31,971 nt of DNA, taken from positions 1-31,971 of the IMG/VR virus record IMGVR_UViG_3300036814_000112. One strand, given 5' to 3'. Within the stretch, counting starts at the first letter, position 1; every line of letters begins with the position of its first letter. This DNA is from a virus. The notes below the pieces were generated by a model. That model made no database searches and had not been told where the DNA came from. It was given only the letters and a program-made list of their open reading frames with translations. This document shows positions 14,781 through 18,281 of this stretch, one piece after another. The position numbers were made by a program, and so were the translations under genes.

Positions 14781-17700
14781 ATGTGTGGAGGCGGAGGCGA
14801 CAACAGTAACCCGATGAAGGAACTAGAGATAACGGGCGCACAAAAGAAAGACCCTGCGTCCGAAGCTCGCGAGTTGCACCTTTGGAACCAGAGCCAGCAA
14901 TTTGCAGAGACAGATCCCTTTACTTCACAGTACGGGGGTGCTTCTGCTATGCCTGGTCTGTCGGATATGTCACAACGGGGACAGCAATACCTAACTGATT
15001 CGATATTAGGAAAAGGTCAGTACGGCCAACAAAATCTTGGTTTCTCTGACTACTCCCGCCCAGAAACTGCTGCCGCCGCATCAACTTATGGGTACACGGC
15101 AGGAGCGCAGACAGCACCAGGAGGAGCGCCACCACCACCTTTTGTACCACCAACGCTCCCTACTAACAACAAGCCTAACGCCCCTGATCCTCACGCCCCT
15201 CCTTATGACCCTGATGCCCCAGCCGAACCCCAAGGCGATGGCCTGAGTCCTGCTGGTGCTGCCGCAGCAGCAGCTAGTGGATTTGAACGAACTCCTGCGG
15301 AGATAGCAGCAGGAGTAGATGCTGGAGGACTTGGTGGCTGGAAAGATAAGAACAGGAGAGAAAGAGAAGCAGTAGCTAGGGCAGCAGCAGCAGCAGCAGC
15401 AGCAGCAGCGAATACTGCACCACCATCACCAGAGTTTGGAAACAACTTTGAGATCGAATCAGCTCGCCTGGGCCAAGATCCAAAGTTTATGGCTGGTATG
15501 CAACAACAGCCAGCAGGGTTGGCGTCACGGGGAGACTATACGCCAAGCTCTATAGATGGACGGGGTATGCAACAACAGCCAGCAGGGGTCGATCCCTTTG
15601 GAAGGGCAGCAGAATTTGGGGGAGGATTAGCAGGAAAAGCTACGGAACCCTCCACCGCAAGGACTACGGCAGCCTCCACACCCACCCGCGCCCCGCAAGG
15701 AGGCTTATTGCGTATTGGGGACAAATCGTTGGAACGAGGGGTGGGGATGGACAACATGGAAATGGGAGCGTTGGCTACCCGCCGTTCGCTAGAAGAATTT
15801 GCACCCCAGCAGCCCAGCTATAGCAACATTGTCGGCCCAACTGTCGGATCAACGCAGGTGGGTACGACGCCGAGGATTGGAACTAGTGTAGGGAGCTTCA
15901 GTCCGTACGGTAGAGCCTTTTCAGTAGGTTCTACCCCGACAACTAGCATAGGCCAGACACCGATCACAAAGACGTCGGATATGTCAGCAAGCGAGATAAC
16001 GGCTCCAGACGCCACGGGCATACAGGGATTAGGCCCACTAAAGGGGTTGGGCGGTTTTGCTTCTGGGGCGTCAACTAGACACATCCAGACTGGTGTTGGT
16101 GATGTTGCTGGACCAGACGTGCTAAAGCCTGAACAGGTGATTGACCCTAATACGGGCGCGACAGTCAACCTCGGTCCCGTTGCGGGAGAGGTAAGCGGAG
16201 CGCTTACGGACTATTCTGCCCCGCAGGTCGATGTCGCCGCCCTCGACGACGTAGGTGCAGTTGAAGTTGGTGATCTTGAAGGAGCAAAGGCATTAAAAAT
16301 GGGCAGCGTAGACCCAACGGCCATAGCTGGCCCACAAGCTGTCGACATCGACCCCCTCACTGGGCAAGCTACTCAGTCTGTAGACGCGGTAGCACCTACA
16401 GAATTTGGTGGAGCCTCTTATTTGGGCGGTCCAGCCATTCAAGACTATATGAATCAAGCAGGTGTCGAGGCGCAGGTCGCACAAGCTCGACAAGATTACG
16501 AGGAGGCTCTTAATAGAGAAAAATCTCGCCAAGCACAGGTCGGCGCCTTTGGTTCGCGTGGAACGGTAGAAGAATCAGGGCTGATAGGAGATCAGGAGCG
16601 GAATATTGCCCAGATTCGTGGTGCGGGATATGACCGTGCCGCACAACTTATGGAGGCCGACACAGGACGCCGCCAGCAAGCAGGGATGCAAGGCCAACAA
16701 TTAGGGGTGCAAGCTGGACTGGCTGGTCAGGGGTTAGAGGCCCAGAGAAGGGAATCTGATGCGGCGCGCGCACAGCAAGCGGGATTGGCTGGACAGCAAC
16801 TAGGCGCACAGTCTGCAATGCAAACACAGCAACTGGCACAGCAAGGGAATATTCGCGGTGCCGAACTGGGATTACAGGCTTCTATGCAGGGGCAACAACT
16901 AGAAGCTCAACGAAGGCAGGAAAACGCAGCAAGAGCGCAGCAAGTAGGAATGCAGGGTCAGCAGTTGGGTGTGCAATCAGCGATGCAGACTCAGCAACTG
17001 GCACAGGCTGGCGACATTCGCGGCGCTGAACTTGGCCTAGAATCGTCAATGCAAGGACAGCAGTTAGAGGCAAGCCGCCGTGAAGCCAATGCTGCGCGGG
17101 CGCAACAGGCAGCATTAACGGGGCAGCAGTTGGGTTCTGAGGCTGGGCTACAGAGCCAACAGCTAACACAGCAAGCTCGCATCCAAACGGCCCAGAATGA
17201 TTTTGCTGTCGCACAGGCCAACCAGGCTGCGTCGATGCAAACTGGGACACAAGAGGCCCAACTTAATGCCGAAAGACAGATGGAGGCAGCCCGTTTAGAA
17301 CTAGCGGAAGCGCAACAGACGCAAGAACTTAGTGCTGAAGCTGGTATGCAAACCCAAACCTTGGGTTATCAGGCCAGCGCACAGAATGCACAAAACGAGC
17401 TACAGGCCGCTCAAGCGAACCTTAATGCGTCCCTACAGACGAATGACAGCCAAGCGCAGCTTAATGCACAGCGTGCGGTACGGAATGCGGAACTTAAAAG
17501 CACTCAACTTATGCAGACCCAACAACTACGCAACCAGGCAGGAATGCAGAATAGGGGACTGGAATCCGAAGCGAAAATGCAGAAATCACGGAACCAGATA
17601 GAGGTAGCACAAAGCAATATGCAAGCCGCCCTACAAACAGGGAATCAACAGGCTGCAATCAACGCACAGCGCCAACTGTCACAAGCCCAGATGGGGCTGG

Positions 17701-18281
17701 ACGCCGCTTCGCGCAATCAGTCGACCCAACTTCAGGCCGCAGGGATGGGGATGGACGCCCAAGGTCAATTTAGGCAACAGCAACTTGGTGCAGCCCAGCA
17801 GTTGGCAGACATTGGTGGTATGCGACAGGGTGCTGCATTCGGTGCAGCCGACCAGTTGAGGGGCATGGGCGCCAATCAGGAACAGGCCGAAAGATTGCAA
17901 CAGGCTTGGGATTACGAGCAGTGGCTAAGAGGGCAGGAGGGCGGCGCAGAGTCACTTGGCTTGGTTTCGGCCATGATGCCTGGAGGAATCCAGCAGCAAT
18001 GGCAGCGTAAGCCAGATAGATTTGGCCAGATTCTAGGGGCAGCAACATCCTTGGGTGGAGCGGCTCTGGGTAGTGACATAAGAATGAAAGAAAACATTAG
18101 GTATGTTGGCGAGAAGAACGGCCACAAACTTTACGAATTCAATTACCTGGGTGGAGAGCAACGCTACAAGGGTGTAATGGCCCAGGATCTCCTGACAACA
18201 CGTCCTGACGCGTTGACGAGCCGAAACGGTCTATACTGGGTTGACTATGGCGCACTTGGCCTAGCAATGGAGGCCGTATAA
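14781..18281 (+). CDS. Giant Gln-rich virion protein with 11-residue repeats and S74-like C-terminus
   Basis: The 1166-residue product has three zones. Residues 1-600 are low-complexity, rich in Pro, Gly, Ala and Ser, with a poly-Ala run at about 201-210 and GMQQQPAG twice. Residues 633-995 consist of 33 consecutive 11-residue units without a phase break, Gln/Ala-rich with consensus near QAxMQxQQLxx, which should form long hendecad helices. The last 68 residues begin GSDIRMKEN (Ser1098, Lys1103) and continue LYEFNYLGG, YKGVMAQDL and YWVDYGAL, matching the S74 intramolecular chaperone/endopeptidase domain, here short. The gene follows the gp13-like gene, the place of T7 internal core proteins, yet S74 domains are typical of fibres. 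An ejected internal protein or a fibre-like shaft are both possible. Confidence 0.8.
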   Translation: MCGGGGDNSNPMKELEITGAQKKDPASEARELHLWNQSQQFAETDPFTSQYGGASAMPGLSDMSQRGQQYLTDSILGKGQYGQQNLGFSDYSRPETAAAASTYGYTAGAQTAPGGAPPPPFVPPTLPTNNKPNAPDPHAPPYDPDAPAEPQGDGLSPAGAAAAAASGFERTPAEIAAGVDAGGLGGWKDKNRREREAVARAAAAAAAAAANTAPPSPEFGNNFEIESARLGQDPKFMAGMQQQPAGLASRGDYTPSSIDGRGMQQQPAGVDPFGRAAEFGGGLAGKATEPSTARTTAASTPTRAPQGGLLRIGDKSLERGVGMDNMEMGALATRRSLEEFAPQQPSYSNIVGPTVGSTQVGTTPRIGTSVGSFSPYGRAFSVGSTPTTSIGQTPITKTSDMSASEITAPDATGIQGLGPLKGLGGFASGASTRHIQTGVGDVAGPDVLKPEQVIDPNTGATVNLGPVAGEVSGALTDYSAPQVDVAALDDVGAVEVGDLEGAKALKMGSVDPTAIAGPQAVDIDPLTGQATQSVDAVAPTEFGGASYLGGPAIQDYMNQAGVEAQVAQARQDYEEALNREKSRQAQVGAFGSRGTVEESGLIGDQERNIAQIRGAGYDRAAQLMEADTGRRQQAGMQGQQLGVQAGLAGQGLEAQRRESDAARAQQAGLAGQQLGAQSAMQTQQLAQQGNIRGAELGLQASMQGQQLEAQRRQENAARAQQVGMQGQQLGVQSAMQTQQLAQAGDIRGAELGLESSMQGQQLEASRREANAARAQQAALTGQQLGSEAGLQSQQLTQQARIQTAQNDFAVAQANQAASMQTGTQEAQLNAERQMEAARLELAEAQQTQELSAEAGMQTQTLGYQASAQNAQNELQAAQANLNASLQTNDSQAQLNAQRAVRNAELKSTQLMQTQQLRNQAGMQNRGLESEAKMQKSRNQIEVAQSNMQAALQTGNQQAAINAQRQLSQAQMGLDAASRNQSTQLQAAGMGMDAQGQFRQQQLGAAQQLADIGGMRQGAAFGAADQLRGMGANQEQAERLQQAWDYEQWLRGQEGGAESLGLVSAMMPGGIQQQWQRKPDRFGQILGAATSLGGAALGSDIRMKENIRYVGEKNGHKLYEFNYLGGEQRYKGVMAQDLLTTRPDALTSRNGLYWVDYGALGLAMEAV
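15381..15410 (+). repeat. GCA trinucleotide run encoding poly-Ala
   Basis: Nine GCA codons and a final GCG sit in frame within the low-complexity N-terminal zone of the 1166-residue protein. Such runs change length easily by slippage without breaking the frame. Confidence 0.85.
15495..15587 (+). repeat. 24-bp exact direct repeat encoding GMQQQPAG
   Basis: Identical 24-base copies lie at 15495-15518 and 15564-15587, both in frame. Exact identity implies a recent duplication or ongoing exchange. Confidence 0.8.
16677..17765 (+). repeat. 33 x 11-residue (33-bp) coding repeat block
   Basis: Every unit is 33 bp, so the phase holds over 1,089 bp. The first 16 or so units show a higher-order five-unit (55-residue) period, for example QRRESDAARAQ, QRRQENAARAQ and SRREANAARAQ recurring every fifth unit. 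Later units show a six-unit (66-residue) period, with QTGTQEAQLNA, QTNDSQAQLNA and QTGNQQAAINA recurring every sixth. Confidence 0.85.

Follow-up and report, generated by a model that had tools for sequence, protein, structure and literature searches.

What is the role of a protein segment that divides into 33 units of exactly 11 residues without interruption? This question is raised by a gene in the IMG/VR virus record IMGVR_UViG_3300036814_000112, of which the whole stretch of 31,971 nucleotides (positions 1 to 31,971, hereafter the window) was analyzed. The gene, an open reading frame at 14781-18281 on the plus strand, encodes a protein of 1166 residues. We report here that the protein belongs to the family PHROG_4287, and that among its relatives the block of 11-residue units differs in length by whole units only. 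From these observations we develop a model in which the block serves as a helical spacer during DNA ejection.

The 11-residue block and its length among relatives

The initial annotation, which was made from the letters of the window, placed 33 gapless units at residues 633-995 (16677-17765) and described superperiods of 55 and 66 residues in the first and second half. Our analysis bore this out. No insertion interrupts the block, its proline count is zero, and the autocorrelation of the whole block shows elevated values at almost no lags other than multiples of 11 (z = 13.1 at lag 55 and z = 9.7 at lag 66). When the block was split, identity peaked at lag 55 for residues 633-808 (63%, z = 16.9) and at lag 66 for residues 809-995 (37%, z = 9.3). 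The QRR...ARAQ-type units recur every fifth unit, at residues 655, 710 and 765, the third reading SRREANAARAQ, and the QTxxxxAxxNA units recur every sixth, at 820, 886 and 952. We read the two superperiods as two cassette types, a QRR-headed one of five units and a turn-headed one of six, and the unit lists of relatives show that the copy number of both types differs between them.

Block length was compared through the distance between the conserved core that precedes the block and the FRxQQ motif that follows it. In every member having both anchors this distance equals 28+11n, with ten distinct values of n (0, 14, 16, 22, 23, 24, 27, 28, 32 and 38); three raw distances were larger by one, as the anchor pattern had started one residue early in them. 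Here n counts the units beyond the shortest form; the last unit before FR adds one, so that the window protein has n = 32 yet 33 units. The same value is found in L111, and the other relatives have n = 38 (L099), 27 (L002), 24 (L014), 23 (L017, L098), 22 (L013, L018, L105), 16 (L102) and 14 (L096), or carry no repeat at all (n = 0; L015, L095, L104 and L114). Contig L283, which was fetched once the rule had been formulated, also conforms (n = 28). If the lengths were independent and random, the probability that ten of them fall in one class modulo 11 would be about (1/11)^9, which can serve only as a guide given that the members are related. As a control we used the N-terminal linker of the same proteins, where the distance from the N-terminal domain to the YMN motif spans 252-543 residues and favors no class modulo 11. 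One relative, L181, has no FR anchor, and its YEQWLR distance falls outside the 28+11n rule. Length variation of the block, which we had looked for, was found to run from 0 to 38 units in whole units only; loss of the 11-residue phase, also looked for, occurred in no member with both anchors. This suggests that the block grows and shrinks by whole units, keeping the helical phase while its length is free to change. So strict a phase rule is, in our opinion, strong evidence of a purely sequence-based kind for a helical assembly in a protein for which no structural homologue was found. No correlation was seen between n and the lengths of the neighboring proteins.

A second marine clade with LANQQ-type units (L237, L258, L232 and others in L184-L262) carries its repeats at the same insertion site and includes zero-repeat members as well. 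Its 19 anchor distances, that of L212 being corrected for the contig end, all equal 39+7a+11b with a = 0-3. In addition, the homologue in Roseobacter phage CRP-901 (L266:11555-12940) has at this site an unrelated, charged 18-residue (11+7) repeat of the RFGAEDVMRGRFMDDQAS type. Lengths of 7, 11 and 18 residues are all near whole numbers of helical turns, and the comparisons show that expansion at this one site took place repeatedly and involved different units.

We also considered whether 33-bp units simply expand and contract by recombination, which would produce 11-residue steps without selection. Tandem units by nature change in whole units, and the existence of zero-repeat members indicates that the block is dispensable in evolution; both points agree with such a neutral origin. 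However, in the best pair of 55-residue copies, which share 80% protein identity, the synonymous codons at identical residues agreed in 15 of 44 cases, against 16.0 expected from the gene's own usage, and codon agreement in the other cassette pairs was likewise near expectation. A codon match at chance level means that the repeat is not a recent DNA duplication and, given that the protein sequence is shared while the codons are randomized, that selection acts on the protein. We therefore conclude from the codon comparison that the repeat is kept up at the protein level. Neutral change is also at odds with the lack of any out-of-phase indel among the members measured, as opposed to the freely varying linker in the same gene, and with the heptad steps and the unrelated 18-residue repeat at the same site, which are not products of one 33-bp unit. 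Thus, we consider a neutral origin distinctly improbable.

Protein family and genomic context

The PHROG_4287 profile ("DNA ejection protein") matched the 1166-residue protein over the core and the C-terminal part (E = 4.3e-13), and it matched the zero-repeat relative L015 far more strongly than the repeat-bearing window protein (E = 2.7e-25). Homologues from the isolates phiM5, OH and Octadecabacter DB virus 2 also match this profile. Judged by these matches, the protein is a giant PHROG_4287 member and not a stand-alone rod, and it probably helps push DNA into the host. When the whole protein was searched against annotated phages, only S74-domain matches were obtained; a PDB sequence search gave no match at E up to 1, and a scan of genome contigs returned one relative that is S74-only.

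The source is a marine short-tailed phage; the contig encodes an SU10-type portal, a scaffold, a capsid protein and virion structural proteins, and we assigned the phage to the short-tailed LUZ24/SU10-portal lineage. The large gene upstream of the 1166-residue gene is a relative of the P22 gp10-like "phage stabilization protein" genes. Two large proteins are encoded downstream, in the place where relatives have internal virion proteins, and neither has a homologue among annotated phages. In the GenBank record of phiM5, the homologue of the 1166-residue protein and the three internal virion proteins that follow it are "detected in phage particle proteome". The initial annotation had called the window product a virion protein; this holds for the phiM5 homologue, and the label appears to reach the window protein through its relatives only.

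Predicted structure and helix faces

An AlphaFold2 monomer run on residues 540-1166 with 17 sequences predicted helix nearly throughout, and the predicted local distance difference test score (pLDDT) reached 80-91 over a large part of the second half, with smaller values in the first half. The 11-residue unit is thus predicted to be helical, as the initial annotation supposed, and its phase is kept in every relative with the block and both anchors. Two further proposals of that annotation did not fare as well. Instead of one continuous rod of about 50 nm, the model has helix breaks at residues 822-823, 888-889 and 954-955, which coincide with the QT(G/N)x units and lie 66 residues apart; and the 66-residue period would, in this model, mark a recurrent turn or kink and not the pitch of a superhelix. 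For the zero-repeat relative L015, one continuous helix was predicted through the insertion site, at low confidence (pLDDT 47). A beta reading, in which a 2.2-residue periodicity would fit a strand, was rejected on the basis of the predicted helix and of the 7-, 11- and 18-residue steps, which are helical units.

The predicted turns bring up an antiparallel bundle, in which the chain meanders, every cassette of 55 or 66 residues forming one helix and the 11-residue steps keeping neighboring helices in register. The block would then serve for packing or as a scaffold within the head and would not be a tube. The turns every 66 residues, with a pLDDT of about 90 around one of them, and the conservation of the turn units in relatives favor this arrangement. 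However, close relatives have 1, 2 or 3 turn units as counted by eye, and strict alternation would flip the conserved C-terminal part. Differences of a single unit (n = 22, 23 and 24) also misfit the addition of whole helices, and the predicted template modeling score (pTM) of the monomer was 0.30. We regard such a bundle as unlikely.

To describe the faces of the helix, we placed 283 units on a helical wheel. Gln and Asn at positions 8, 1 and 5 form one face; on either side of it runs a hydrophobic seam, one at position 9 and the other at 4/11, and the back carries Ala, Gly and Ser. Hydrophobicity is dominated by the second angular harmonic (163.5 degrees), which reached 1.26 compared with at most 0.18 in the null. 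A hendecad coiled coil would show one hydrophobic stripe, at about 98 degrees per residue; here, two seams were found. Because a helix contacting two neighbors would show two seams, the two-lobed hydrophobicity suggests helices packed side by side in a sheet or barrel rather than in a plain two- or three-stranded rod. Estimates of the seam angle vary with the method and were not used to derive a subunit number.

The C-terminal S74 domain

Pfam PF13884 matched the window protein with E = 0.0066, which is below the cutoff, and L015 with E = 3.3e-7, which is above it. S74 domains are cleaved by a Ser/Lys pair five residues apart; S1098 and K1103 match this dyad (+5), and the spacing is kept in the S74-bearing relatives. 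The window domain has only 69 residues and ends in ...GLAMEAV, and we take it to lack the C-terminal helical trimerization part of the full-length domain. In the relatives that bear it, S74 starts 51-60 residues past YEQWLR, and five relatives without it (L102, L105, L111, L114 and L181) end 58-61 residues past the same motif. The endpoints of the latter almost coincide with the S74 start of the former, as though these genes encoded the cleaved product directly. Because the S74-less relatives end where S74 begins elsewhere, and because the Ser/Lys pair is present, S74 looks like a removable appendix.

An S74 domain with this dyad spacing would also be expected in an external trimeric rod, that is, a tail needle or fiber whose straight stalk is the hendecad coil and whose folding is assisted by S74 at the C-terminus, the chaperone afterwards cleaving itself off. 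Shortly behind the stabilization gene, at the position of the gene studied here, needle genes are found in other phages, and homologues have been annotated as tailspike or tail fiber on the strength of S74. On the other hand, the PHROG_4287 match spans the helical core and not S74 alone, the S74-less relatives already end at the would-be start of the domain, and the two-lobed hydrophobicity is unlike the one core stripe of a plain trimeric coiled coil. The probability of such a rod therefore seems low to us.

A proposed DNA conduit

From the family, the gene order, the repeat, its quantized length and its protein-level conservation, all of which were observed, together with the predicted helix and turns, we infer an oligomer, a lumen, export and a function: the protein would act in ejection, and its helical spacer, locked in phase, would line the DNA conduit or lengthen it. 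We give this proposal about an even chance of being right. The spacer, alpha-helical and made of 11-residue units, would sit between the conserved helical core and the conserved post-repeat helix, and would gain or lose units only in phase-keeping steps of 11 residues or, in other clades, of 7 and 11. Many copies of the helix may pack side by side via the two hydrophobic seams to form the conduit wall, with the Gln/Asn face between the seams lining the DNA conduit in the manner of the phiX174 H tube. The number of units would set the conduit length, at about 1.65 nm per unit if fully helical, and a fully extended helix of 363 residues would measure about 54 nm (0.15 nm per residue), which is comparable to a whole podovirus head. 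Because the extended helix is about as long as the head, folding inside the head is expected; the chain would probably double back there, hinged at the turn units, and straighten during ejection. Other ejection proteins refold on ejection, and those of T7, DEV and SU10 form, or have been proposed to form, trans-envelope channels. The gene order in relatives, namely stabilization protein, homologue of the 1166-residue protein and internal virion proteins, backs the conduit proposal.

Several points weigh against it. "DNA ejection protein" is a database label of PHROG_4287 and not an experimental result, the ejection role of the two large downstream proteins is drawn from gene position alone, and a C-terminal S74 domain is typical of trimeric fibers and spikes. 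The pTM of the AlphaFold2 monomer is low, and its turns speak against one unbroken helix of 54 nm. Foldseek searches against PDB and BFVD gave long-helix matches without significance, which are uninformative; the best viral ones were mostly S74-containing phage proteins. In addition, because the CRP-901 repeat is charged rather than Gln-rich, a Gln lumen is not general.

Comparison with known systems

The DNA pilot protein H of phiX174 forms a decameric alpha-helical tube whose lumen is mostly N/Q/R (PMC7354561). Its hendecads QKELTKMQLDN, QKEIAEMQNET and QKEIAGIQSAT have Q1, a hydrophobic residue at 4 and Q8 in common with the window units, the registers being matched by eye, and in this by-eye register (Table 1 of PMC7354561) both show a Gln/Asn/Arg face between two contact seams. 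An amide-rich lumen and a role in DNA delivery are described for H (PMC7354561), and for the window protein both are what we infer. The two differ in that H has 3 hendecads followed by heptads in a 17-nm tube, whereas the window family has up to 38 hendecads and occurs in a double-stranded DNA phage; the PDB search at E up to 1 detected no sequence homology to H. We raise, as a tentative and rather doubtful generalization, that tailed double-stranded DNA phages have independently evolved an amide-lined, phiX174-H-like helical conduit in an ejection protein, the length of the conduit being digitally adjustable by 11 (or 7) residues at a time, between none and about 60 nm.

Within PHROG_4287, Sinorhizobium phage phiM5_27, Rhizobium phage RHph_Y1_10 and Ochrobactrum phage OH p40 share the core motif (YMNPY...FGGSR... 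in phiM5), the gene order and often the C-terminal mini S74 with the window protein. However, they have about 300-470 residues and no long hendecad block, whereas in the window protein 33 units are inserted and the N-terminal half is long. T7 gp14/gp15/gp16 and Pseudomonas phage DEV gp72/gp73 (PMC10925440) resemble it in their helicity and in forming an internal-virion-protein cluster after the tail genes, but they are not described in PMC10925440 as quantized hendecad arrays and gave no PDB sequence match. Undecad coiled coils such as that of NadA3 (PMC6191539) share the 11-residue coiled-coil periodicity, but NadA3 is an unrelated bacterial adhesin stalk.

Repeats of 11 residues in variable copy number and gapless phase have been described in siphophage tape measure proteins (PMC3271669), and the block may accordingly be asked to act as a ruler that sets the length of a tail or nozzle. 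The viral fold matches include tape measure proteins, at template modeling scores (TM-scores) of 0.2 or less. However, tape measure proteins set tail length and carry W/F markers (PMC3271669), whereas the block units are Gln/Ala-rich and lack these markers, and the window phage is short-tailed: it has a short-tail gene set with an SU10-type portal, and neither a tube nor a tape gene was found among its proteins. Nearly all members, irrespective of n, have a preceding stabilization-type protein of 509-536 residues, and members with n = 0 exist. A ruler is therefore very improbable. There is precedent for hendecad helices, for ejection proteins and for phage rulers built of repeats. In the open-access papers searched, we found no ejection-family protein with a helical spacer that varies between 0 and 38 units solely in steps that preserve the phase.

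Domain architecture and other features of the window

Based on the relatives, the order of the parts is N-terminal domain, Pro/Gly-rich linker, helical core, hendecad block, FRxQQ...YEQWLR helix, Gly-rich segment and optional mini S74 (Table 1). The spacing from YMN to GY(F)xxAA is 60 in all relatives but one, and that from FR to YEQWLR is 49 in 16 of the 16 members measured. A transmembrane reading of the Gly-rich tail was weak, its Kyte-Doolittle value being just about 0.9-1.2. In the relative L002 (L002:1304-4594) the N-terminal linker contains a long poly-Gln stretch, and the window protein has no such run.

Table 1. Coordinates of the 1166-residue gene and of its parts in the window
Feature	Coordinates	Strand	Basis
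Whole gene, PHROG_4287 member	14781..18281	+	Open reading frame; PHROG_4287 E 4.3e-13; best family member E 1.1e-26
Conserved N-terminal domain, residues 1-90	14781..15050	+	18 invariant columns in 6 relatives
Pro/Gly/Ala-rich linker, residues 91-555, length free among relatives	15051..16445	+	N-domain-to-YMN distances
Helical core YMN...FGSR...GYxxAA, residues 556-632, family signature	16446..16676	+	Alignments
33 x 11-residue block, residues 633-995	16677..17765	+	Unit division, autocorrelation
55-residue (5-unit) cassette 1, starts QRRESDAARAQ	16743..16907	+	80% identity with cassette 2
55-residue cassette 2, starts QRRQENAARAQ	16908..17072	+	Exactly one whole cassette missing from L002 (55-residue alignment gap)
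66-residue (6-unit) cassette 1, turn unit QTGTQEAQLNA at 17238-17270	17205..17402	+	AlphaFold2 break 822-823
66-residue cassette 2, turn unit QTNDSQAQLNA at 17436-17468	17403..17600	+	AlphaFold2 break 888-889, pLDDT ~90 on both sides
Partial third 66-residue cassette, turn unit QTGNQQAAINA at 17634-17666	17601..17765	+	AlphaFold2 break 954-955
Conserved post-repeat helical segment QFRQQQ...YEQWLR, residues 996-1050	17766..17930	+	Anchor spacing
Gly-rich, mildly hydrophobic segment ahead of S74, residues 1077-1097	18009..18071	+	Kyte-Doolittle ~0.9-1.2; weak
Mini S74 (endosialidase intramolecular chaperone) domain, residues 1098-1166, S1098 + K1103	18072..18278	+	Pfam PF13884

Elsewhere in the window, a small gene of a conserved unnamed family (14378-14779) lies between the stabilization-type gene and the 1166-residue gene, and the genes of relatives at this position are often annotated as acetyltransferase. 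The next protein (18281-20176) contains a (Gly-Val-Pro)n run encoded by a 9-bp tandem repeat (18596-18636). Close to the window start, at 12-151, there are tandem GACGACGACG repeats of acidic appearance.

Implications

Structures that show how short-tailed phages bridge the cell envelope are available for few of them. A family with 0-38 equal helical units in fixed surroundings constitutes a natural experiment, in which oligomer length, lumen chemistry and infection can be compared across members. If the conduit reading is true, it would give a natural length series for the ejectosome.

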